DNA of 10,269 nucleotides from Clostridia bacterium (GTDB lineage: Bacteria > Bacillota > Clostridia > Oscillospirales > Butyricicoccaceae): contig JAFYMQ010000029.1 in NCBI GenBank assembly GCA_017556565.1, forward strand, positions 1 through 10,269. The letters are read 5' to 3'. This document shows, piece after piece, positions 2 to 9,353 of this stretch; within the stretch, counting starts at the first letter, position 1, and each line of letters starts with the position of its first letter. The position numbers and the translations under genes were made by a program. The notes beneath the pieces were generated by a model. That model ran no database searches and had not been told where the DNA came from. It worked only from the letters and a program-made list of their open reading frames with translations.

Positions 2-430
2 GTGGCGCATACCGTGGAGCTTGCACACAAAGCAGGCAAAGCCATCTTTATCCACGCCGATCTGACCCACGGAATAGCCAAGGACAAATGGGGCATCGAG
101 TATCTTGCGTCCGTCGGCGCGGACGGCATCATCAGCACACACGCAAATCTTATCAGGTACGCAAGAGAGCTTGGACTGCTCTGCGTGCAGCGGTATTTTG
201 CCGTTGATTCTCAGGGCCTGAGCAGCATCCGCGAGATGATACACCAGACCAAGCCCGACCTTGTGGAGATACTGCCCGGTGTCATAGACAAGGTTATCAG
301 GCACTTTGCAAGCGAGAATATCCCGGTCATCGCAGCAGGTCTGATAGAGACCAAATCCGAGGTAACACGAGCTCTGTCAAGCGGCGCAATCGCCGTGTCC
401 ACGGGCAAAAAAGAGCTTTGGGACATATAA
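2..430 (+). CDS. glpP: GlpP-type glycerol-3-phosphate-responsive antiterminator, 3' part
   Basis: This is the last 142 residues of a GlpP protein. The reading frame is open to the left edge, and family members are usually about 180-190 residues, so roughly 40-45 N-terminal residues are missing; the GTG at base 2 is probably internal. Family-typical segments are visible: FIHADLTHGIAKD near residue 16, GIISTHANLI near 42, VQRYFAVDS near 62, a VEILPGVIDK segment near 88, and AAGLIET followed by AVSTGKKELW at the C-terminus. In Bacillus subtilis GlpP binds glycerol 3-phosphate and the leader mRNA of glp genes, preventing termination and stabilising the message. Here it lies directly upstream of a leader-like hairpin and a GlpA-like gene, which fits regulation of that operon. 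The family call is confident. The RNA target is inferred from position. Confidence 0.93.
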   Translation: MAHTVELAHKAGKAIFIHADLTHGIAKDKWGIEYLASVGADGIISTHANLIRYARELGLLCVQRYFAVDSQGLSSIREMIHQTKPDLVEILPGVIDKVIRHFASENIPVIAAGLIETKSEVTRALSSGAIAVSTGKKELWDI

Positions 431-465
431 TGTAAAAACAGTTTAATATTCCGAAGAGATTTAGA

Positions 466-518
466 GAAACGGACGTAACAAGACGAAGCTTGCTTCGCCT
501 TGTTTGCCGTTTCTTTTT
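466..518 (+). terminator. Long leader hairpin with T tract, candidate GlpP-controlled terminator
   Basis: Bases 466-472 pair with 507-513 (7 bp). After a small internal loop, 477-488 pair with 493-504 (11 of 12 pairs, one A/C mismatch at 483/498), closing on a 4-nt loop CTTG. The 3' side runs into TTTCTTTTT (510-518). This is an intrinsic terminator between glpP and the GlpA-like gene, about 35 nt upstream of that gene's start. It could simply end glpP transcription. Because GlpP proteins act on terminators in glp leaders, it is a strong candidate for a conditional terminator. A 5-nt segment upstream (452-456, CGAAG) could pair with 493-497 of the 3' arm as a weak alternative fold. Confidence 0.8.
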
Positions 519-539
519 ATTATGCAAAATTATCCTGAT

Positions 540-552: not shown

Positions 553-1986
553 ATGATTTATGACATCGCAATAGTCGGAGCAGGCGTATGCGGCGGTATG
601 ATAGCAAGAGAGCTGTCTCGCTATGACCTGCGTGTCTGCCTGCTTGAGCGCGCCAACGACGTTGCCATGGGTGCATCCAAAGCAAACAGCGGCATCATCC
701 ACGGCGGATTTGATCCCGAGCCGGGCACGCTCAAGCAGAAGTTCAACACAGAGGGCAGAGAACTTTTGTTCGATGCAGCCCGTGAGCTTTCTGTGCCGCA
801 CATCCGCAACGGCTCGCTGGTCTGCGCATTCACACCCGAAGAGGAGGAGCAGGTGCGCGAGCTTTATGCCCGCGGCGCGACAAACGGCATAGACAATCTG
901 CATCTTATCTCGGGCGAGCAGGCAAGAGCGCTTGAGAGCTCTCTGTCACAGGGTGTCACCCTTGCTCTGCACGTGCCCGACGCAGGCATCGTCTGCCCCT
1001 ACAAGCTGACCATTGCCGCAGTGGGCAACGCTATGGACAACGGCGTTGAGCTGCACCGCAATTTTGAGGTCACAGGCATCGAGCATAGCGGCGGGATCTT
1101 TACCCTCAAAAGCGCCGCAGGGGAGAGCGTGAGCACCAAGTATCTCATCAACTGCGCAGGCGGCCATGCAGGCAAGGTTGCCGCTATGGCAGGTGATGAC
1201 AGTATAGAGATCATCCCCCGTGCAGGCGAGTATATGCTGCTCGACCGCAGCGAGGGCAAGACTGTAGGGCACACCATCTTCCGCGCTCCCTCAAAAGAGG
1301 GCAAGGGCATACTTGTATCTCCCACCGCAGACGGAAACCTGCTGCTTGGCCCCACCGCGGTGCGTGTAGACACCCCCGACAGTACACAGACCACCCGTGA
1401 GGGTCTTGCCGCCGTTGCCCGCTCGGTAAAAGAGAGCGTACCGAACGTTGACTTGAGCCGAGTCATCACGTCCTTTACCGGTGTGCGCGCATCTCACGCA
1501 GCGGGAGATTTTATCGTCGGGCAGTCCAAAACTGTTGACAATATGATCAACGTTGCGGCTATCGACTCGCCCGGTCTGACCGCCTGCGTAGCCATTGCGC
1601 GCTACGTAACGGATATTCTCGGCGGCATGGGCGTGCAGCTTGACAGAAAGCCCGATTGGTGCGGCAAGCGCGAGGACACGGAGGCATTTTCCAAGCTGAC
1701 CGACGAGGAGAAAGACGCGGTCATCAAACAAAACCCCGCATACGGCAGAATAATCTGCCGTTGCGAAGAAATAACCGAGGGTGAGATAAGAGCGGCACTG
1801 CATATCAATCCTCCCGCTCTCGATATGGACGGTGTCAAGCGCCGTACCCGCTCGGGAATGGGCAGATGTCAGGGCGGCTTCTGCGCACCTTTTGTGATGA
1901 AGCTTATTGCCGAGGAGCGGCAGATAGAGCTTGAGGAAGTCACCAAAAACGGTGGCAGCTCAAAAATGCTGACAGGGAGGATATAA
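553..1986 (+). CDS. glpA: GlpA-like FAD-dependent glycerol-3-phosphate dehydrogenase with C-terminal [2Fe-2S] domain
   Basis: The 477-residue protein is predicted to oxidise sn-glycerol 3-phosphate to dihydroxyacetone phosphate in the cytoplasm. The N-terminus carries a Rossmann FAD motif GAGVCGG (G9, G11, G14), followed by an acidic strand end (LLERA) and the DAO-family segment NSGIIHGGFDPEPG near residue 46. The region around 300-345 (FTGVRASHA...) is typical of the DAO fold. The C-terminal ~75 residues form a BFD-like [2Fe-2S] domain with cysteines at 402, 404, 439 and 444 (CxC ... Cx4C), the same domain found at the end of E. coli GlpA. There is no membrane segment. The gene follows glpP and a leader hairpin and is 3 nt from the next gene. 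Some homologues act on other 2-hydroxy acids, but glpP upstream and GDPD downstream favour glycerol 3-phosphate. The start is set by the site at 540-544. Confidence 0.88.
   Translation: MIYDIAIVGAGVCGGMIARELSRYDLRVCLLERANDVAMGASKANSGIIHGGFDPEPGTLKQKFNTEGRELLFDAARELSVPHIRNGSLVCAFTPEEEEQVRELYARGATNGIDNLHLISGEQARALESSLSQGVTLALHVPDAGIVCPYKLTIAAVGNAMDNGVELHRNFEVTGIEHSGGIFTLKSAAGESVSTKYLINCAGGHAGKVAAMAGDDSIEIIPRAGEYMLLDRSEGKTVGHTIFRAPSKEGKGILVSPTADGNLLLGPTAVRVDTPDSTQTTREGLAAVARSVKESVPNVDLSRVITSFTGVRASHAAGDFIVGQSKTVDNMINVAAIDSPGLTACVAIARYVTDILGGMGVQLDRKPDWCGKREDTEAFSKLTDEEKDAVIKQNPAYGRIICRCEEITEGEIRAALHINPPALDMDGVKRRTRSGMGRCQGGFCAPFVMKLIAEERQIELEEVTKNGGSSKMLTGRI
1975..1980 (+). promoter_or_regulatory. 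Ribosome binding site that fixes a GTG start
   Basis: GGGAGG lies inside the last codons of the GlpA-like gene, 9 nt before the GTG at 1990. The next in-frame ATG, at residue 16, would delete the FAD-binding glycine motif, so the GTG is the real start. The position suggests translational coupling with the upstream gene. Confidence 0.75.
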
Positions 1987-1989
1987 GCT

Positions 1990-3234
1990 GTGAAGAATCA
2001 CGATATAGTTATTATCGGCGGCGGCCCTGCAGGTATGGCAGCAGCCGTGGCGGCTTTTGACAGCGGTGTCAGAGACGTTGTTATCATCGACCGCGAAGAT
2101 AATCTGGGCGGCGTGCTCAAGCAGTGCATCCACAACGGCTTCGGCCTGCACAAGCTGGGCAAAGAGCTGACAGGCCCCGAGTATGCACACGTTTATGCTC
2201 AGCAGGTAAGAGAGCGTGGGATAAAGGTCTATTCGGGCACAACGGTCACACGCATCACAAGTGACAAAATCGTTACCGCGACCAATACGGACGGAATACT
2301 CAAAATACAGGCAAAAGCCGTGGTGCTTGCCATGGGCTGCCGTGAGCGCAGCCGCGGCGCACTCAATATCAGCGGCACCCGCCCCGCAGGCGTGTACAGC
2401 GCAGGCACGGCACAGAAGCTTATCAACTGCGACGGATACATGGTGGGCAAGCGTGTGGTCATACTGGGCTCGGGCGATATAGGCCTGATCATGGCTCGAC
2501 GTATGACCCTGCAGGGGGCAAAAGTCGAGGCAGTCTGCGAGATTTTGCCCTATTCGGGCGGTCTGACCCGTAATATCGTGCAGTGCCTTGAGGATTACGG
2601 TATACCCCTGCACCTCAGCACGACCGTTGCCGAGATACACGGCAGCGAGCGGCTTGAGGGCGTTACCGTAGCGCAGGTCGACCAAAACCGCGCACCCATC
2701 GAGAGCACAAGGAGATATATCCCCTGCGACACACTGCTGCTGTCCTGCGGCCTGATACCCGAAAACGAGCTTACCCTCAATGCGGGCATAGAGCTGGACA
2801 AGGTTACGGGCGGCGCTGTGGTCGATCAGTTCAGACAGACGTCGATTGATGGCATCTTTGCCTGCGGAAACGTGCTGCAGGTACACGATCTTGTCGACCA
2901 CGTGTCCGACGAGGCAGAGTGTGCAGGTGCATCTGCTGCCAAGTACGTGCTGGGCAACCCTTCAGAGTGCGGCCGCATCACTACCTGCGCCGGCGAGGGA
3001 GTACGCTACGTGCTGCCCCAGCGGGTGCTTTTGAGCGGTGAGCAGGTATCGCTGTATCTGCGTGTCAGAGAGCCTCAGACCGGAGTAAAACTGGTGGTAA
3101 AAAGCGGCGAGCGGATAATCAAAACCTTCCCCCGACTCAAAGCCGCCCCCGGTGAGATGGAAAAGCTGGACATTCCCATGTCGCTGCTTTCCGATGCCGA
3201 TAAGACCCTGACCGTATCTATGGAGGTGCAATAA
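1990..3234 (+). CDS. FAD/NAD(P)-type oxidoreductase, second subunit of the GlpA-like dehydrogenase
   Basis: The 414-residue flavoprotein has the two-dinucleotide-binding (Pyr_redox_2) architecture. The first motif is GGGPAG (G10, G12, G15), followed by a segment at 38-52 (NLGGVLKQCIHNGFG) characteristic of the proteins encoded next to clostridial GlpA-like genes. The second Rossmann motif, GSGDIG (160-165), could bind NAD(P)H. The closing FAD motif GIFACGN is at 288-294. Residues after about 330 form an extra C-terminal domain I do not recognise. The paired Cys of classical disulfide reductases is not evident; C46 stands alone in that region. It takes the operon position of E. coli glpB but looks closer to pyridine-nucleotide oxidoreductases, so it may pass electrons from the GlpA-like subunit to a nicotinamide or Fe-S acceptor (inference). 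It starts 3 nt after the previous gene and overlaps the next in TAATG. Confidence 0.85.
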   Translation: MKNHDIVIIGGGPAGMAAAVAAFDSGVRDVVIIDREDNLGGVLKQCIHNGFGLHKLGKELTGPEYAHVYAQQVRERGIKVYSGTTVTRITSDKIVTATNTDGILKIQAKAVVLAMGCRERSRGALNISGTRPAGVYSAGTAQKLINCDGYMVGKRVVILGSGDIGLIMARRMTLQGAKVEAVCEILPYSGGLTRNIVQCLEDYGIPLHLSTTVAEIHGSERLEGVTVAQVDQNRAPIESTRRYIPCDTLLLSCGLIPENELTLNAGIELDKVTGGAVVDQFRQTSIDGIFACGNVLQVHDLVDHVSDEAECAGASAAKYVLGNPSECGRITTCAGEGVRYVLPQRVLLSGEQVSLYLRVREPQTGVKLVVKSGERIIKTFPRLKAAPGEMEKLDIPMSLLSDADKTLTVSMEVQ

Positions 3235-3581
3235 TGACCAGAACACTTACGTGCATAATCTGTCCCCGAGGCTGCACTTTGCAGGCCGAGATAAACGGCG
3301 ACAGCGTATCTGTCAGCGGCAACGCCTGCAAGCGCGGCGAGGAGTACGGAAGGAGCGAATGCCTGCATCCCGTACGCACCGTAACCGCCGTGATCAGGGT
3401 GGAAAACCGTCCCGACTGCGCTCTCAGCGTCAAGACCGCACAGCCCATTGCAAAAGAGCATATTTTTGATCTTATGGCAGTTTTGCGCGGCATGACCGTA
3501 AAAGCCCCTGTTGCAATTGGCGAAGTTATATGCGACAATATATACGGAACACAGGTCATTGCAACGGGGAGCGTGGAATAA
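3234..3581 (+). CDS. DUF1667 small Cys-rich protein
   Basis: The 115-residue soluble protein matches my recollection of the DUF1667 family, which is found almost always beside the preceding two oxidoreductases in Firmicutes and Thermotogae. The N-terminus has CIICPRGC (C7, C10, C14), with further cysteines at C32 (GNACKRGEEY) and C43. Four or five cysteines at this spacing suggest an Fe-S cluster or a zinc site. The C-terminal half holds a HIFDLMAVLRG helix and an APVAIGEVICDNIYG segment typical of the family. No function is established that I know of. By context it may be the electron-transfer subunit replacing the Fe-S protein GlpC of E. coli (inference). The start overlaps the upstream stop (TAATG), with GGAGG at 3222-3226, so translation is probably coupled and the products may be stoichiometric. 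Confidence 0.88.
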   Translation: MTRTLTCIICPRGCTLQAEINGDSVSVSGNACKRGEEYGRSECLHPVRTVTAVIRVENRPDCALSVKTAQPIAKEHIFDLMAVLRGMTVKAPVAIGEVICDNIYGTQVIATGSVE

Positions 3582-4381
3582 TGGAAAACACTCTTAAAAA
3601 TATCCGGCTGTTTTTGTTCGATATGGACGGCACTCTGTATCTGGGCAGCAGACTTTTTGACTTTACCGTCGAGCTGCTGGATACCATCAAGGCTCAGGGC
3701 AAAAAATATATGTTCATGACCAACAACTCGTCCAAAAGCGTTGAAGATTACGTCACAAAGCTTGCCGCCCTGGGCATAGAGGCCACAGAGGATGATTTTT
3801 TTACCTCCTCTCAGGCTACCGCTCTGTATCTGCTTGAGCATCACAAAAATCAGCGTCTGTACGTCTGCGGCACCCGGTCGCTCAAAGCCGAACTGAGCAA
3901 AAACGGCTTTGAGATCACCGAGGATACAGCCGATACCGACTGTATCGTTATGGGCTTTGATACCGAGCTGACCTTCAAAAAGCTCCACGATATTTCCTAT
4001 CTGCTGCTGACACGCCCCGACATTCCCTATATCGCAACCAACCCCGACTACGTATGTCCCACCGAGTTCGGCTCTGTGCCCGACTGCGGCAGCGTGTGCG
4101 ATATGCTCTTTAACGTCTCCCGCCGCCGTCCCATCGTCATCGGCAAGCCTCAGCCCGAAATGCCCCTGCTCGCCATGGCAAAAGCCGGCACAGCGCCTGC
4201 AGAGACCGCGGTCATAGGCGACAGAATATACACCGATATCAAGAGCGGACTCAGTGCAGGCGCGTATACCGTGCTGGTGCTCAGCGGCGAGACCACAAGA
4301 GAGATACTGGACGCATCTTTTGATAAGCCCCACGCGGTAATGGACAGCGCGGCGCAGCTGCTTGATATACTCAAAGGTTAA
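3581..4381 (+). CDS. HAD-IIA family phosphatase (NagD/AraL/phosphoglycolate phosphatase-like)
   Basis: The 266-residue cytoplasmic HAD hydrolase has all four catalytic motifs. Motif I is FDMDGT with nucleophile D14 and acid/base D16; motif II is TNNSS at 47-51; the motif III lysine is K189 in IGKPQPEM; motif IV is GDRIYTD with D214 and D219. The cap between motifs II and III is the C2 type of subfamily IIA. Family members dephosphorylate small phosphates such as phosphoglycolate, p-nitrophenyl phosphate, nucleotides or glycerol 3-phosphate. In this operon the plausible roles are glycerol-3-phosphate phosphatase, or repair of toxic 2-phosphoglycolate or related by-products. The sequence alone does not decide. 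The ATG at 3581 shares a base with the DUF1667 stop (TAATG) and has GGGGAG upstream. The frame is open 17 codons further upstream, but the overlap start fits the motif spacing. Confidence 0.88.
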   Translation: MENTLKNIRLFLFDMDGTLYLGSRLFDFTVELLDTIKAQGKKYMFMTNNSSKSVEDYVTKLAALGIEATEDDFFTSSQATALYLLEHHKNQRLYVCGTRSLKAELSKNGFEITEDTADTDCIVMGFDTELTFKKLHDISYLLLTRPDIPYIATNPDYVCPTEFGSVPDCGSVCDMLFNVSRRRPIVIGKPQPEMPLLAMAKAGTAPAETAVIGDRIYTDIKSGLSAGAYTVLVLSGETTREILDASFDKPHAVMDSAAQLLDILKG

Positions 4382-4394
4382 TGGGAGGTACATT

Positions 4395-5114
4395 ATGGAT
4401 ACCGTCAGACTTACCGAAAAAGGCAATACAAAAATGATCGCCCACCGTGGCGTGAGCAAGCTTGAGCGGGAGAATACTATGCCCGCCTTCGTAGCCGCAG
4501 GCAACCGCAGCTACTGGGGCATAGAGACCGACATCCACGTCACCAGTGACGGTAAATATATTGTATATCACGATACCAATATTCAGCGCCTGACAGGCGT
4601 TGATGCAATCATTGAGGAGCAAACCTTTGATTATCTGCGCAGTCTGCCCATCATAGACTTTGACGAGCAGCCCCGTGTTGATCTGCATATGCCCTCGCTG
4701 CAGGAGTATATAAAAATCTGCAAAAAATACGGCAAGATCGCCGTACTGGAGCTGAAAAACGCCATGACACGCGAGCAGGTATACGCAGTCTGCGACGTGC
4801 TTGACGGGCTTGAGTACCGCGGGGGCGTGGTCGTCATCTCCTTTGACTACGATAACCTGCTCTACGTCAAAGCAAAACACCCCGAGCAGAAAGTGCAGTT
4901 TTTGTGCAAAGAGTATGACGAAGAACTGATCCTCAAGCTGAAAAAAGACGGCATGGATCTGGATATCCACCGCGGCGCAGTGGACAAAAATCTGGTCGAT
5001 CTGTGCCACAAAAACGGCCTCGAACTCAACGCATGGACGGTTGACGATCCTGAGCAGGCTATGAGTTTTATCGAGATGGGTATCGACTACATAACTACAA
5101 ATATACTTGAGTGA
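4395..5114 (+). CDS. Glycerophosphodiester phosphodiesterase, cytoplasmic UgpQ-like
   Basis: The 239-residue GDPD-family enzyme hydrolyses glycerophosphodiesters to glycerol 3-phosphate and an alcohol. The catalytic signature is intact: HRG with H17, the REN triad at 25-27, metal ligands E44 and D46 in IETDIHV, and second catalytic histidine H59 in YHD. Further family segments are VLELKN near 118 and NAWTVDDPEQ near 214, followed by GIDYITTN at the C-terminus. There is no signal peptide or membrane segment, so it acts on imported or internally generated diesters, like UgpQ rather than periplasmic GlpQ. GGGAGG at 4383-4388 sets the ATG at 4395. The gene is 13 nt after the phosphatase and is the last of the operon, before a strong terminator. 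Its product would feed the GlpA-like enzyme upstream. Confidence 0.93.
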   Translation: MDTVRLTEKGNTKMIAHRGVSKLERENTMPAFVAAGNRSYWGIETDIHVTSDGKYIVYHDTNIQRLTGVDAIIEEQTFDYLRSLPIIDFDEQPRVDLHMPSLQEYIKICKKYGKIAVLELKNAMTREQVYAVCDVLDGLEYRGGVVVISFDYDNLLYVKAKHPEQKVQFLCKEYDEELILKLKKDGMDLDIHRGAVDKNLVDLCHKNGLELNAWTVDDPEQAMSFIEMGIDYITTNILE

Positions 5115-5120
5115 GCACTG

Positions 5121-5158
5121 TCCGCGGGCATTTTGCCCGCGGATTTTCTTTTTCTTTT
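5121..5158 (+). terminator. Intrinsic terminator after the glycerol-phosphate operon
   Basis: A perfect 10-bp GC-rich stem (5121-5130 with 5134-5143) closes on a TTT loop and is followed by TTTTCTTTTTCTTTT. It lies 6 nt after the GDPD stop codon and marks the end of the glp-type operon. Confidence 0.95.
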
Positions 5159-5233
5159 GCTGAATACCGTGGCTTTCGGGTGCAAAAAATAACAGTTGAA
5201 CAGTAAAACAAAAAAGCAAAAGAAAGGGAAAAT

Positions 5234-5659
5234 ATGAAAAAAGTTGCAGTGGTATATTGGAGCGGCACGGGCAATACCAAACAGATGGCAGAGTATATCG
5301 CCGAGGGCGTGAGAAAAGCAGGGGAGCAGGCATATATTTTTACTCCCGACAGGTTTGAGCCGGGTATGATAGACGCCTATGATGCAATAGCTTTCGGCTG
5401 CCCCGCAATGGGCATCGAGAGCCTTGAGGAGGGGGAGTTTGCGCCTATGTTCGGTGAGTGCCAAAGCCGCCTGAAAAGCAAAAAAATCGCCCTCTTCGGC
5501 TCTTACGGCTGGGGCAGCGGCGAGTGGATGCGCAAGTGGGAAAAAGAGTGTAATGATGCCGGCGCGGTGCTCATGGGCGAGGGGGTAAAATGCTGCGGCA
5601 GCCCCGACGAGATAGCCTATGCCGAGTGTCTGGCTCAGGGCGAGTTTCTGGTCAGATAA
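5234..5659 (+). CDS. Short-chain flavodoxin
   Basis: The 141-residue FMN-binding electron carrier is of the length usual for clostridial short-chain flavodoxins. The phosphate loop SGTGNT is at 10-15. The first isoalloxazine loop (FGCPAMGIE) lies near residue 55 and the second (GSYGWGSGEWM) near 90. The C-terminal part contains KCCGSPDE, where many homologues have a similar GAPDE stretch. Flavodoxins can replace ferredoxin as a low-potential carrier, for example under iron limitation. It is a single-gene unit: a terminator lies 75 nt upstream and another starts 12 nt downstream. AAAGAAAGGG just before the ATG serves as the ribosome site. I see no convincing promoter in the 5159-5225 gap, which is A/T-rich. 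The neighbouring Nfn and Hyd-like enzymes normally use ferredoxin, so a shared electron pool is plausible. Confidence 0.93.
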   Translation: MKKVAVVYWSGTGNTKQMAEYIAEGVRKAGEQAYIFTPDRFEPGMIDAYDAIAFGCPAMGIESLEEGEFAPMFGECQSRLKSKKIALFGSYGWGSGEWMRKWEKECNDAGAVLMGEGVKCCGSPDEIAYAECLAQGEFLVR

Positions 5660-5671
5660 ACAAATTATTAG

Positions 5672-5709
5672 AAAATAAGTATACCCAATATACGGGTATG
5701 CTTATTTTT
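5672..5709 (+). terminator. Intrinsic terminator after flavodoxin
   Basis: A 15-bp stem pairs 5672-5686 with 5694-5708, including one T/G wobble, and closes on a 7-nt loop. It ends in TTTTT (5705-5709). The 5' side is A-rich, so the element could also work on the opposite strand. Confidence 0.9.
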
Positions 5710-5796
5710 GTGTGCAGACCTGCCGAAACTATGCAATTTGTTGTATTTTTTTGCAAAAATTAGTAAGAAAAAAGGCGTCAAAAACAATCTTTTCTG

Positions 5797-5825
5797 TTGT
5801 CAAGCATCGGGTTTTGTGATAGAAT
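5797..5825 (+). promoter_or_regulatory. Sigma-A-type promoter of the Nudix-nfnAB unit
   Basis: TTGTCA (5797-5802) and TAGAAT (5820-5825) are separated by exactly 17 nt, each matching the consensus hexamer at 5 of 6 positions. The upstream stretch (about 5735-5795) is A/T-rich. Initiation would fall near 5832, giving a leader of about 60 nt before the Nudix ATG. A weak stem could form in that leader (5829-5835 with 5844-5850). No operator was recognised. Confidence 0.75.
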
Positions 5826-5890
5826 ACACAGGGGGGAAAGCAGCCTCCTGTTATTATCGCGCCCAAGACTACATAAACGAGGTCGATATT

Positions 5891-6472
5891 ATGCAGCCAC
5901 TTGACAAAAACGGCCTTACCGAGGCGGAGTTTTTGAGCCGGTACAGCAGCGAGCGATACCCCAAACCATCCCTGACAGCCGATACGGTTTTACTGACCGG
6001 GAGCGAGGGTGAGATGCGCGTTCTGCTTATATGCAGAAGCGGTCATCCCTGCATAGGTCAGTGGGCATTTCCCGGCGGATTTGCCGAAGAGCGCGAGAGC
6101 ATCGAGCAGACCGCTCTGCGTGAACTGTATGAGGAAACGGGCATCACAGATGCCGTGCTTTTGCCGGTGGGTCTGTTCAGCAAACCCGGCAGGGACAAGC
6201 GGGGATGGGTAGTCTCCCAGTGCTTTGTGTCCGTGCTGCCCGAGGCAGCTATGGCAAAAGCAGGGGATGACGCAGCTCAGGCTGAGTGGTTTACGCTCAG
6301 GCTGGCAGATAACACAGTGAATCTTACGGGCCGTTCGGCAGAGATAAAAATCGGCTACGGTGTATCGGACGGACAGGTGTATACACAGAGTCTGTCGCAG
6401 GATGCCCTGGCATTTGATCATGCCGATATGCTCGTCAGAGCTTTAATATGTATTCAAAAAATCCGGATATGA
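5891..6472 (+). CDS. Nudix hydrolase, ADP-ribose/nucleoside-diphosphate type
   Basis: The 193-residue protein carries a complete Nudix box at G63-I85 that fits GX5EX7REUXEEXGU exactly, with the catalytic REL-x-EE core at 77-82. The segment just before the box (QWAFPGGF) and the N-terminal PSLTADTVLL stretch resemble ADP-ribose pyrophosphatase and the Nudix domain of the NAD regulator NrtR. The winged-helix domain of NrtR is absent, since the protein ends soon after AFDHADMLVRAL, so an enzymatic role is more likely than repression. The substrate is unproven. The ATG at 5891 has GAGG 8 nt upstream. The frame is open to about 5708, but that stretch covers the promoter. The gene ends 15 nt before nfnA, so the two are probably cotranscribed, linking nucleotide housekeeping with NAD(P) redox balance. 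Confidence 0.88.
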   Translation: MQPLDKNGLTEAEFLSRYSSERYPKPSLTADTVLLTGSEGEMRVLLICRSGHPCIGQWAFPGGFAEERESIEQTALRELYEETGITDAVLLPVGLFSKPGRDKRGWVVSQCFVSVLPEAAMAKAGDDAAQAEWFTLRLADNTVNLTGRSAEIKIGYGVSDGQVYTQSLSQDALAFDHADMLVRALICIQKIRI

Positions 6473-6487
6473 AAAGAGGAGTAAACT

Positions 6488-7336
6488 ATGTACAAGATCG
6501 CTGCCAGAAAGGAGCTCAATCCCACTGTTACCCAGCTGGAGATCGAAGCACCTCTTGTTGCGAAAAAAGCACAGCCCGGTCAGTTCATCATCCTTCGCGT
6601 GGATGAAGACGGAGAGAGAATACCTCTTACCGTTGCCGGCTGCGACAAAGAAGCAGGCACCGTCAAGATCATTTTCCAGATCGTCGGCGGCACCACCACC
6701 AAGCTCAACGCAAAGCGTGAGGGCGAGTACATCCAGGACTTCGTAGGTCCTCTGGGTGTTGCTACCCACCTCGACGGCCTCAAGAAGGTCTGCATCGTCG
6801 GCGGCGGCGTCGGCTGTGCAATCGCTATGCCTATTGCTCAGGCTCTCCACGAGCTGGGCGCAGAAGTTACCAGCATCATCGGCTTCCGCAACAAGGATCT
6901 GGTCATTCTGGAAGATGAGTTCACCGCTTGCACCGACAAGCTGGTTATGATGACCGACGACGGCTCCTACGGCCGCCACGGCAACGTCACCGTACCCCTC
7001 AAGGAAATGCTTGAAGCAGGCGAGAAGTTCGACATGGTCATCACCATCGGCCCCCTGATCATGATGAAGTTCGTCACCCTGACCGCAAAGCCCTTCGGCG
7101 TACCCTGCACAGTTTCCATGAACCCCATCATGATCGATGGTACCGGTATGTGCGGCGGCTGCCGTCTTACCCTCAACCAGGATGGCAAGAAGGTCACCAA
7201 GTTTGCTTGTGTTGACGGTCCCGATTTCAACGGCTACGAAGTCGACTTTGACGAGGCTATGTCCCGCGGCAGAATGTACGCAGACTTCGAGCGTCATGCA
7301 TACGAAGAGGCATGCAACCTCTTCAAAAAGGCTTAA
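6488..7336 (+). CDS. nfnA: NfnA/SudB: NADH-dependent ferredoxin:NADP+ oxidoreductase, small (alpha) subunit
   Basis: The 282-residue protein belongs to the ferredoxin-NADP reductase / dihydroorotate dehydrogenase electron-transfer superfamily. The N-terminal barrel has the FAD motif RIPLT (44-48) after PGQFIIL. The nucleotide-binding domain begins with VGGGVG (104-109). The C-terminal [2Fe-2S] site shows DGTGMCGGC with D217, C222 and C225, plus C241 in FACVDGP. In characterised NfnA this cluster uses an Asp and three Cys, which fits D217. With NfnB it forms the soluble electron-bifurcating complex coupling NADH and reduced ferredoxin to NADP+ reduction. NfnB follows 15 nt downstream. The alternative name SudB (sulfide dehydrogenase) reflects the homologous Pyrococcus enzyme. 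AGAGGAG precedes the ATG. Codon use is much more biased than in the upstream genes, suggesting high expression. Confidence 0.92.
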   Translation: MYKIAARKELNPTVTQLEIEAPLVAKKAQPGQFIILRVDEDGERIPLTVAGCDKEAGTVKIIFQIVGGTTTKLNAKREGEYIQDFVGPLGVATHLDGLKKVCIVGGGVGCAIAMPIAQALHELGAEVTSIIGFRNKDLVILEDEFTACTDKLVMMTDDGSYGRHGNVTVPLKEMLEAGEKFDMVITIGPLIMMKFVTLTAKPFGVPCTVSMNPIMIDGTGMCGGCRLTLNQDGKKVTKFACVDGPDFNGYEVDFDEAMSRGRMYADFERHAYEEACNLFKKA

Positions 7337-7351
7337 AGGAGGAAAAGAGCA

Positions 7352-8761
7352 ATGGCTATAGATCCCAAAAAGCATGAGATGCCCTCGCAGGAGCCTGCGG
7401 TGCGTGCTCATAATTTCAAAGAGGTTGCCCTGGGCTACACCATGGAAGTCGCAGTAGAAGAGGCAAAGCGCTGCCTCAACTGCAAGACCCAGCCCTGCGT
7501 AAGCGGCTGCCCCGTTAACATCAACATCCCTGATTTTATCACCCAGATCAAAGAAGGCAAGTTCGAAGAAGCATATCAGATCATCACCAAGACTTCTTCT
7601 CTGCCCGCAGTCTGCGGCCGTGTCTGCCCCCAGGAGAGCCAGTGCGAGAGCAAGTGTACTCTGGGCGTAAAGTTCGAGCCCGTAGGTATCGGCAGACTGG
7701 AGCGCTTTGTTGCTGACTGGCACAATGCCAACGTCACCGAGAAGCCCGCTGCTCCCGAGAGCAACGGCCACAAGGTAGCTATCGTCGGTTCCGGCCCCTC
7801 CGGTCTGACCTGCGCAGGCGACCTGGCAAAGAAGGGCTACAAGGTCACCGTATTCGAAGCTCTGCACACCGCAGGCGGCGTTCTGGTATACGGTATCCCC
7901 GAGTTCCGTCTCCCCAAGAGCATCGTTGCCAAGGAAGTTGACACCCTCAAGGCTCTGGGCGTTGACGTTGAGACCAACGTTGTTATCGGCAAGACCCTGA
8001 CCATCGACGAGCTGTTCGAGATGGGCTACGAGGCTGTATTCGTAGGCTCCGGTGCAGGTCTGCCCAACTTTATGAACATCCCCGGCGAGGCACTCAAGGG
8101 CGTTTACTCCGCAAACGAGTTCCTTACCCGCAGCAACCTGATGAAGGCTTATCTGGACAACCCTGTCACCCCCATTCAGAAGGGCGGCAAGGTAGCAGTT
8201 GTCGGCGGCGGTAACGTTGCTATGGACGCTGCAAGAACAGCTCTCCGTCTGGGCGCAGAAAAGGTCTACATAGTATACCGCCGCTCCATGGAAGAGCTGC
8301 CCGCAAGGCACGAAGAGGTCGAGCATGCAATCGAAGAGGGCATCGACTTCCAGCTGCTGCGTAACCCCGTTGAAATCCTGGGCTACCAGAATCCCGACGA
8401 TCCCAGAGATCCCAGAAACGGCTTTGTCACCGGTATGAAGTGCGTCAAGATGGAGCTGGGCGAGCCTGATGCAAAGGGCCGCCGCCGTCCCGTCGAGATC
8501 CCCGGCAGCGAGTTCGTTCTGGACGTTGACACCGTCATCATGTCCATCGGTACTTCTCCCAACCCCCTGATCAAGAGCACCACCAAGGGTCTGGAAGTCA
8601 ACAACCACGGCGGCATCATCGTCAACGAAGACGGCCTGACCTCCCGTGAGGGCGTCTATGCAGGCGGTGACGCAGTTACCGGCGCAGCAACCGTTATCTC
8701 GGCTATGGGCGCAGGCAAGACCGCTGCAAAGGCTATCGACGAGTTCCTCAGCGCAAAATAA
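7352..8761 (+). CDS. nfnB: NfnB/SudA: NADPH-dependent large (beta) subunit, GltD/GltA-like
   Basis: The 469-residue flavoprotein has an N-terminal two-cluster [4Fe-4S] domain followed by two dinucleotide-binding folds. Cys clusters are C41/C44/C49/C53 (CLNCKTQPCVSGCP) and C88/C92/C98/C102 (CGRVCPQ...C...C). The FAD motif GSGPSG is at 146-151. The second motif GGGNVA begins at 285 and is followed by VYRRS, a basic stretch usually associated with NADPH rather than NADH. The closing FAD motif (VYAGGDAVTGAATV) is near the C-terminus. The family includes the small subunit of glutamate synthase and is often annotated gltA, but the adjacent nfnA and the absence of a GltB large subunit identify it as NfnB. 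A near-perfect AAAGGAGG (7335-7342) sits 9 nt from the ATG and overlaps the nfnA stop. It shares the biased codon use of nfnA. Confidence 0.93.
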   Translation: MAIDPKKHEMPSQEPAVRAHNFKEVALGYTMEVAVEEAKRCLNCKTQPCVSGCPVNINIPDFITQIKEGKFEEAYQIITKTSSLPAVCGRVCPQESQCESKCTLGVKFEPVGIGRLERFVADWHNANVTEKPAAPESNGHKVAIVGSGPSGLTCAGDLAKKGYKVTVFEALHTAGGVLVYGIPEFRLPKSIVAKEVDTLKALGVDVETNVVIGKTLTIDELFEMGYEAVFVGSGAGLPNFMNIPGEALKGVYSANEFLTRSNLMKAYLDNPVTPIQKGGKVAVVGGGNVAMDAARTALRLGAEKVYIVYRRSMEELPARHEEVEHAIEEGIDFQLLRNPVEILGYQNPDDPRDPRNGFVTGMKCVKMELGEPDAKGRRRPVEIPGSEFVLDVDTVIMSIGTSPNPLIKSTTKGLEVNNHGGIIVNEDGLTSREGVYAGGDAVTGAATVISAMGAGKTAAKAIDEFLSAK

Positions 8762-8773
8762 ACCAAACAAAAC

Positions 8774-8809
8774 AGCGCGGCAGACTGTTTTTTGACGGTT
8801 TGCCGCGCT
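8774..8809 (+). terminator. Stem-loop after nfnB, first of a tandem pair
   Basis: The arms 8774-8787 and 8796-8809 form 14 bp, of which 9 outer pairs are perfect (AGCGCGGCA/TGCCGCGCT) and the inner part includes two G/T wobbles. The loop is T-rich. There is no T tract directly 3' on this strand; the next hairpin supplies one. On the opposite strand the stem is followed by a T-rich stretch (complement of 8762-8773), so it could also stop antisense transcription. Confidence 0.6.
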
Positions 8810-8813
8810 TGAG

Positions 8814-8831
8814 AGCGTAATAACGCTTTTT
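8814..8831 (+). terminator. Small hairpin with T tract, second of a tandem pair
   Basis: A 5-bp stem (AGCGT 8814-8818 with ACGCT 8823-8827) and an AATA loop run into TTTTT (8827-8831). It is weak alone, but with the preceding 14-bp stem it probably separates nfnAB transcription from the NuoE/NuoF-like genes, at least partly. Confidence 0.55.
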
Positions 8832-8867
8832 GCACAATCCCCAAAAATACATTAAGGAGAGTACAGA

Positions 8868-9353
8868 ATGAGCGCACAGTTCGATTTTGCTGTCGTTGAC
8901 AAGGTTCTTGCCGCTCACGATTGCAAGCAGTCCGGGATCATTGCCATTCTGCAGGAGATCCAGGAGCACTATCATTATCTTCCCAGAGAAATATTCCCCT
9001 ATATATCCGCCAAGCTCGATATGAGCGAGGCTGAGATCTACAGCGTTGCAACATTCTACGAGAACTTCTCTCTCGAGCCCAAGGGCAAGTATGTTATCAA
9101 AATCTGTGACGGTACCGCATGCCACGTCCGTCGCTCCATACCCATCCTTGACCGTATCCGTGCAGAGCTTGGTCTGTCTGCAGAAAAGAAGACCTCCGAT
9201 GATCTCAACTTTACCGTTGAGACCGTTTCCTGCCTGGGCGCATGCGGTCTGGCTCCCGTTCTTACAGTCAACGATGTAGTTTATCCCGCAATGACTCCTG
9301 ACAAGGCAAGCGCCCTGCTCAAGGAACTCAGAGAGGAGCTCGCCAATGCTTAA
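8868..9353 (+). CDS. nuoE: NuoE/HydC-type [2Fe-2S] subunit of a NADH-oxidising complex
   Basis: The 161-residue protein of the complex I 24-kDa family has an N-terminal helical part (GIIAILQEIQEHYHYLP, with SVATFYENFS near 60) and a C-terminal thioredoxin-like [2Fe-2S] domain. Ligands are C80 and C85 (CDGTAC) and C122 and C126 (CLGAC), the family's Cx4C...Cx3C pattern. In anaerobic Firmicutes this subunit usually serves an electron-bifurcating [FeFe] hydrogenase (HydC) or a NAD-dependent formate dehydrogenase rather than respiratory complex I. AAGGAGAG upstream supports the ATG at 8868. The 3' end overlaps the next gene by 8 nt. The tandem hairpin upstream suggests that a separate transcript, or read-through from nfnB, feeds this operon. 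Its codon use resembles nfnAB. Confidence 0.92.
   Translation: MSAQFDFAVVDKVLAAHDCKQSGIIAILQEIQEHYHYLPREIFPYISAKLDMSEAEIYSVATFYENFSLEPKGKYVIKICDGTACHVRRSIPILDRIRAELGLSAEKKTSDDLNFTVETVSCLGACGLAPVLTVNDVVYPAMTPDKASALLKELREELANA

Follow-up and report, generated by a model that had tools for sequence, protein, structure and literature searches.

A GlpTk-NOX-MOX-type operon in a Butyricicoccaceae bacterium, probably encoding a soluble glycerol-3-phosphate dehydrogenase complex

Introduction

GlpTk-type glycerol 3-phosphate (G3P) dehydrogenases belong to the DAO superfamily, and their gene is followed by an NADH-oxidase-like gene (NOX) and then by a gene named "MOX." Members have been named from Thermotoga maritima, Clostridium perfringens, and protists, among others, and both the synteny and the phylogeny have been published (PMC11962113). 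For the Thermococcus kodakarensis system, PMC11962113 refers to Koga 2019 as evidence that a complex forms in vitro. In this study we analyzed a stretch of 10,269 nucleotides, hereafter the window, which spans positions 1 to 10,269 of contig C82 (JAFYMQ010000029.1) in the draft genome of a Clostridia bacterium of the Butyricicoccaceae (GCA_017556565.1, here G000; 1.44 Mb, 75.9% complete). Three genes at positions 553 to 3581 encode GlpTk, NOX, and a protein with a DUF1667 domain, and we put the probability that they specify a soluble G3P dehydrogenase complex of the GlpTk-NOX-MOX type, with G3P oxidation, electron path, and acceptor as proposed below, at roughly three in four.

The same three parts are fused in two protists. 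In the Entamoeba enzyme EhG3PDH, the DAO, BFD, Pyr_redox_2, and DUF1667 domains lie in one chain (PMC10480196), and GlpA-like, Pyr_redox_2, and DUF1667 regions have been reported for the Giardia enzyme gG3PD (PMC4450592); in the window they are separate proteins. The Giardia homologue oxidizes G3P with the artificial acceptor PMS/MTT, at 86.7 nmol/min/mg for the full-length protein and 30.5 nmol/min/mg for its N-terminal half alone. An initial annotation of this DNA had held that activity of the first protein by itself would count against a complex. The Giardia values go part of the way in that direction; they show where the active site lies, but they do not show that the other parts can be dispensed with.

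Results

GlpTk has a probable G3P site and a BFD-like [2Fe-2S] domain

The best NCBIfam model for the 477-residue GlpTk is the type 2 G3P oxidase (NF033460, 307.8 bits), followed by L-2-hydroxyglutarate oxidase (154.4 bits) and GlpA (TIGR03377, 149.1 bits). Since the cut-offs of both the oxidase model (460) and the GlpA model (552.8) are missed, the protein is neither a canonical GlpO nor a canonical GlpA by these models, and the label "GlpA" given to it initially does not hold. With a profile built from 44 relatives, the nearest solved structure is Mycoplasma pneumoniae GlpO (4x9m, 6.9e-87). Residues H50, K251, R312, and S339 are invariant in all 44 aligned relatives; the last three presumably correspond to Lys258, Arg320, and Ser348 in the G3P site of the Mycoplasma enzyme, and H50 aligns with its His51. 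His51 is the proposed base of that oxidase (PMC10726252). Given the invariant G3P-site residues and the likeness to GlpO, the substrate of GlpTk is very probably G3P.

GlpTk thus shares its best model, its nearest structure, and its active-site residues with the type 2 oxidases, but it carries an additional BFD domain and has partner genes. The BFD-like [2Fe-2S] domain (PF04324) scores 47.7 bits against a cut-off of 26, and its cysteines C402, C404, C439, and C444, spaced C-x-C and C-x4-C, are invariant in 44/44 sequences. Together with the DAO domain, this site supports the FAD and [2Fe-2S] cofactors assigned initially to the first protein.

NOX and the DUF1667 protein probably provide a second flavin and a [4Fe-4S] site

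In NOX, a second GxGxxG motif (GSGDIG, residues 160 to 165) is invariant in 60/60 aligned sequences, in support of the earlier assignment of a second protein with FAD and an NAD-type domain. The second strand of the NAD-type domain ends in C-E (C183 in at least 90% of the sequences, E184 in all 60), while NADPH enzymes typically carry arginines at this position. Profile matches include NfnA of NfnABC (9n5u, 2.6e-12), which ranks below thioredoxin reductases and CoA disulfide reductases. An additional beta-rich stretch at the C terminus (about residues 326 to 414) lay outside the listed matches of a structure search with the whole protein. C46, C117, C199, and C246 are also invariant in 60/60 sequences. 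The spacing of residues hinted that C46 might be the single redox cysteine of NADH oxidases and CoA disulfide reductases; this candidate was rejected, as the profile alignment sets that cysteine opposite F51 and leaves a gap around C46. The NOX protein P0125 is 83% identical to that of the window.

The DUF1667 protein contains seven cysteines rather than the five counted initially, and four of them (C7, C10, C14, and C32, in a CxxCxxxC...C arrangement) are invariant in 63/63 sequences. Residues 1 to 45 probably form a [4Fe-4S] domain like that of molybdopterin oxidoreductases, which narrows the metal site first proposed for this protein. The solved C. perfringens protein CPE0013 (2jov) spans just the C-terminal half of DUF1667, and no solved structure of the cysteine-rich N-terminal part was found among the structure-database matches. 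The passages of the literature covered here state no [4Fe-4S] cluster in DUF1667; Fig. 9 of PMC11962113, on cofactor content, or Koga 2019 could hold such a statement.

A pairing of DAO-type and Pyr_redox-type subunits also occurs in dye-linked proline dehydrogenase and heterotetrameric sarcosine oxidase (1y56_B matches GlpTk at 6.5e-26 and 2gag_A matches NOX at 1.8e-13), which act on other substrates and for which we know of no DUF1667 partner.

The trio keeps its order across loci and is fused in some

A scan of contigs gave at least 597 pattern matches, 286 of which were confirmed, and the best 80 of these 286 loci were kept. As far as the contigs reach, the order of the trio is kept in 80/80 loci. 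GlpTk lies upstream of NOX in 79 of them and DUF1667 downstream in 79, the two misses (L010 and L050) ending at a contig edge. Neighboring genes encode GlpP (25/80), a HAD phosphatase homologue (13/80), a glycerophosphodiester phosphodiesterase (GDPD) homologue (3/80), and GlpK (1/80).

From the phylum, 43 further stretches were fetched and 41, from 39 genomes, were scored after removal of a GlpK stretch (L125) and L143. They had been chosen from DUF1667 matches, mostly the strongest and three on purpose (from G049, G006, and G018), so that the shares are non-random estimates: the trio is in order in 40/41, with GlpK in 26/41 and GlpP in 18/41. DUF1667 itself was detected in 20 of the 61 family genomes and in 133 of the 398 phylum genomes; among 14 control genomes, T. 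maritima gave the sole match.

Fusions join neighboring members of the trio. GlpTk and NOX form a single protein of 917 residues in L127, and NOX is joined to DUF1667 in L140 (536 residues) and L141 (580 residues), which belong to one genus, and in L122 (454 residues). In a draft genome, an isolated fusion may be an artifact of assembly; the published protist fusions agree with those found here.

By its domain content and gene order, on which the placement rests, the operon is a further case of the published GlpTk-NOX-MOX system. The initial annotation had proposed a soluble three-subunit G3P dehydrogenase; domains, conserved order, and fusions support that part of it. The system is not new, its type having been described already (PMC11962113).

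Some individual loci depart from the common pattern. The fused protein of L122 (G049:C48) is shorter than the 414 and 115 residues of the separate proteins combined and may lack the beta stretch at the C terminus of NOX. In L164 (G103:C34), DUF1667 is found without GlpTk or NOX within ~6 kb on either side, which may reflect another partner or a relic. In L142 (G366:C97), GlpTk and NOX are each split over two frames and DUF1667 lies in a frame of 454 residues, as in a broken copy or after a sequencing error. Among the 80 loci, a 463-residue protein, which we take to be an alpha-L-fucosidase, follows the trio in 10, and what is presumably the ATPase of a sugar-type ABC transporter precedes it in 10.

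Operon layout and probable control by GlpP

The features of the window are listed in Table 1. The initial reading of the three genes was confirmed by the open reading frames, tightly packed and all on the forward strand, and by their Pfam matches. Because glpTk and nox are separated by 3 nucleotides and nox and the DUF1667 gene overlap by 1, translation of the trio is probably coupled, and the ATG of the HAD-IIA phosphatase gene overlaps the DUF1667 stop codon. The phosphatase and the phosphodiesterase set this operon apart from the published GlpTk-NOX-MOX arrangement. G3P and phosphoglycolate are guesses for the substrate of the phosphatase; GDPD would release G3P.

Table 1. Annotated features of the window (positions counted from its first nucleotide)
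Feature	Position	Strand	Basis and remarks
glpP (GlpP, glycerol-3-phosphate responsive antiterminator)	2..430	+	Pfam G3P_antiterm 7.4e-50, profile 34-173 of 173; 5' end cut by contig edge
Leader between glpP and glpTk: terminator-like hairpin with U-run, probably the site of antitermination by GlpP	463..521	+	Folding, hairpin counts
glpTk, GlpTk-type glycerol-3-phosphate dehydrogenase, 477 aa	553..1986	+	DAO (residues 4-354) 5.4e-69; Fer2_BFD (residues 400-454) 2e-12
nox (NOX), TrxR-like FAD/NAD-type flavoprotein, 414 aa	1990..3234	+	Pyr_redox_2 2.1e-34; beta-rich C-terminal extension
DUF1667 ("MOX") gene, 115 aa	3234..3581	+	DUF1667 2.4e-25; probable [4Fe-4S] domain in residues 1-45; similarity to C. 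perfringens CPE0013 in residues 45-115
HAD-IIA family phosphatase	3581..4381	+	TIGR01460 HAD-IIA 146 bits, cut-off 100.15
Glycerophosphodiester phosphodiesterase (GDPD)	4395..5114	+	Pfam GDPD 2.3e-31; start read at 4395
Terminator-like hairpin	5120..5144	+	Stem of 11 pairs (8 of them G-C) and T-rich tail, 6 nt past GDPD stop
Flavodoxin, NUDIX protein, nfnA, nfnB, NuoE/HydC-like gene	5234-9353		After operon

The operon probably ends at the hairpin behind the GDPD gene; across the whole region, 13 terminator-like sites were found against 10.1 expected (sd 3.0), which is no excess. The genes beyond this hairpin might be counted with the trio as one machine in which flavodoxin accepts the electrons, and a locus of the same genus (L123, G006) does keep the order glpP-trio-HAD-GDPD-fld-nfnA-nfnB-hydC. 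However, nfn, flavodoxin, and hydC-like genes occur in none of the 80 loci of relatives and, among the 41 phylum stretches, just in L123, and the hairpin sets them apart from the operon in the window. We therefore rejected a single machine as very improbable, and the downstream nfn genes are probably a separate unit.

GlpP exceeds its cut-off in 15 of the 20 DUF1667 carriers of the family versus 2 of the other 41 genomes (Fisher 2.4e-8, uncorrected for kinship), and in 12 of these 15 carriers it lies on the same contig within 4 kb. Between glpP and glpTk, positions 455 to 530 fold with -27.4 kcal/mol (z -5.0), a value reached by 0/200 shuffles. A hairpin with a U-run within 130 nucleotides upstream of the glpTk start is present in 26/34 loci with GlpP versus 7/53 without it (Fisher 3e-9, the loci not being independent), and 4/1740 shuffled upstream regions passed the same test. 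In Bacillus subtilis, GlpP acts by antitermination at such leaders, and the sequence before glpTk suggests that its hairpin is likely a GlpP target. A full glycerol kinase is encoded elsewhere in the source genome (C153; 738.9 bits, cut-off 590.35).

These links bear on a proposal made for P. thermosuccinogenes, where the trio, accompanied by GlpP and glycerol kinase, is strongly upregulated under CO2 limitation and a role in transferring electrons from ferredoxin to NADP+ was suggested; the link to glycerol kinase was noted there too (PMC7282089). If the trio were such a ferredoxin/NADH-to-NADP+ oxidoreductase, its association with glycerol genes would be due to chance. The association with GlpP and GlpK, the invariance of the G3P-site residues in GlpTk, and G3P oxidation by the Giardia homologue all speak against this, as does the second NAD-type strand of NOX, whose end lacks the arginines typical of NADPH enzymes; we regard this role as hardly credible here.

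Electron acceptor and direction of the reaction

For the GlpTk-NOX-MOX-type complex, we infer the following path, cluster content, and direction. G3P would be oxidized to dihydroxyacetone phosphate (DHAP) at the FAD of GlpTk, and the electrons would reach the FAD of NOX by way of the BFD-type [2Fe-2S] cluster; NOX also has an NAD-type nucleotide domain. DUF1667 would contribute a [4Fe-4S] cluster like that of molybdopterin oxidoreductases without the pterin. G3P would be supplied by glycerol kinase or by the phosphodiesterase of the operon, and transcription would probably be switched by GlpP at the leader terminator.

A quinone is unlikely as the acceptor in this host. UbiA was missing from the source genome and from 19 of the family's 20 DUF1667 carriers, and every one of the 14 control genomes matched; the remaining carrier (G027), which has UbiA, is represented for DUF1667 by just two partial matches. 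Electrons in this host would therefore most likely go to a soluble carrier. If they went instead to a quinone, or to some membrane partner whose gene lies elsewhere, the trio would resemble GlpABC of E. coli, with which it shares an FAD dehydrogenase with a BFD domain and anaerobic G3P oxidation, and canonical anaerobic GlpABC reduces menaquinone (PMC11962113). Yet apart from the low TIGR03377 score of GlpTk, GlpB exceeds its cut-off of 174.15 in none of the 61 family genomes (weak matches in 31 of them reach at most 26.8 bits and fall nearly all on the first 30 to 60 profile positions), and no GlpC match was found in the source genome, itself 75.9% complete. The statement that there is no GlpC-like or membrane subunit thus holds as far as these searches go.

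Phylum-wide the picture is mixed. UbiA-family proteins are present in 69 of 133 DUF1667 carriers, although this family also covers other prenyltransferases; they are rarer there than in the other genomes (216/265; Fisher 1.9e-9, uncorrected for kinship). The absence of quinones as a rule for the phylum was rejected on the former count, and the claim is therefore limited to genomes of the host family, where a quinone-linked trio appears improbable. Exchange between ferredoxin and NAD exists in this family, because RnfC exceeds its cut-off in 60/61 genomes.

The potential of the G3P/DHAP couple is near -190 mV. With assumed redox potentials, reduction of NAD+ by G3P was calculated to be uphill by 25 kJ/mol, as the initial annotation had supposed, and it would require a G3P/DHAP ratio above about 560 to 5600 at NAD+/NADH ratios of 30 to 3. 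The acceptor in this host is most likely the NAD(H) pool. NAD(H) at NOX is the simplest reading, and we hold direct transfer to the NAD(H) pool as a tentative choice, at somewhat less than even odds. Use of the NAD(H) pool together with reduced ferredoxin is doubtful, and the rest of the weight falls on other carriers. The passages of the literature covered here contain no statement of the physiological acceptor; Fig. 9 of PMC11962113 or Koga 2019 could hold one.

Confurcation, raised as a possibility by the initial annotation, lies near equilibrium by calculation: with the same potentials, G3P plus reduced ferredoxin would yield two NADH at between +5.8 kJ/mol (ferredoxin at -420 mV) and -9.6 kJ/mol (-500 mV). 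Joint use of reduced ferredoxin would remove the uphill step. In an electron-confurcating G3P dehydrogenase, the FAD of NOX would be the crossing point between a high-potential branch (the FAD and [2Fe-2S] of GlpTk) and a low-potential branch (the [4Fe-4S] of DUF1667 and ferredoxin). This predicted layout, by analogy, is that of NfnAB, in which a TrxR-like FAD protein likewise stands beside a [2Fe-2S] and FAD branch and a [4Fe-4S] site; the trio differs in having one predicted [4Fe-4S] cluster, and its cofactor layout is itself a prediction. In this confurcating way lactate dehydrogenase/Etf handles lactate, another substrate with a couple too positive for NAD+ (PMC12051018). We judge such a confurcating enzyme unlikely.

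In vivo the trio might instead run mainly backwards: NAD(P)H or ferredoxin would drive the reduction of DHAP, and the HAD phosphatase would turn the resulting G3P into glycerol as an electron sink. Silencing of the fused Entamoeba homologue lowered glycerol by 45.5% (PMC10480196), and a T. saccharolyticum strain without tsac_1205/1206 made slightly less glycerol (PMC12288451). The reduction of DHAP by NADH is downhill by about 25 kJ/mol, again with the assumed potentials, and the phosphatase gene directly adjoins the trio here and has homologues in 13/80 loci. Against this, published assays ran in the oxidizing direction, control by GlpP, which responds to G3P, and GlpK neighbors fit catabolism, and GpsA-family proteins (NAD(P)-dependent G3P dehydrogenase) are present in 19 of the family's 20 DUF1667 carriers, the source genome among them (C247). 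On the last finding, we rejected the idea that the trio supplies the cell with G3P, and a mainly reductive function is rather unlikely.

As a side finding, RnfC-family matches with their parts in swapped order, the N-terminal one after the C-terminal one, were seen in the source genome (G000:C139:2907-4271), with similar ones in G012, G014, G022, G031, and G047. Some contain an in-frame stop, and they perhaps represent a circularly permuted relative.

Discussion

DUF1667 is present in a third of the sampled phylum genomes, and the trio also occurs in gut protists. If NAD+ and ferredoxin were together the acceptor, the trio would link glycerol and lipid-derived G3P to the redox currency that gut anaerobes use in forming hydrogen and acetate, and DUF1667 would have a role as a [4Fe-4S] electron carrier. 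Confurcation, if true, would add a fifth bifurcation wiring to those of Nfn, Etf, HdrA, and Bfu, and it would explain how G3P is oxidized in fermenters that have no quinone.

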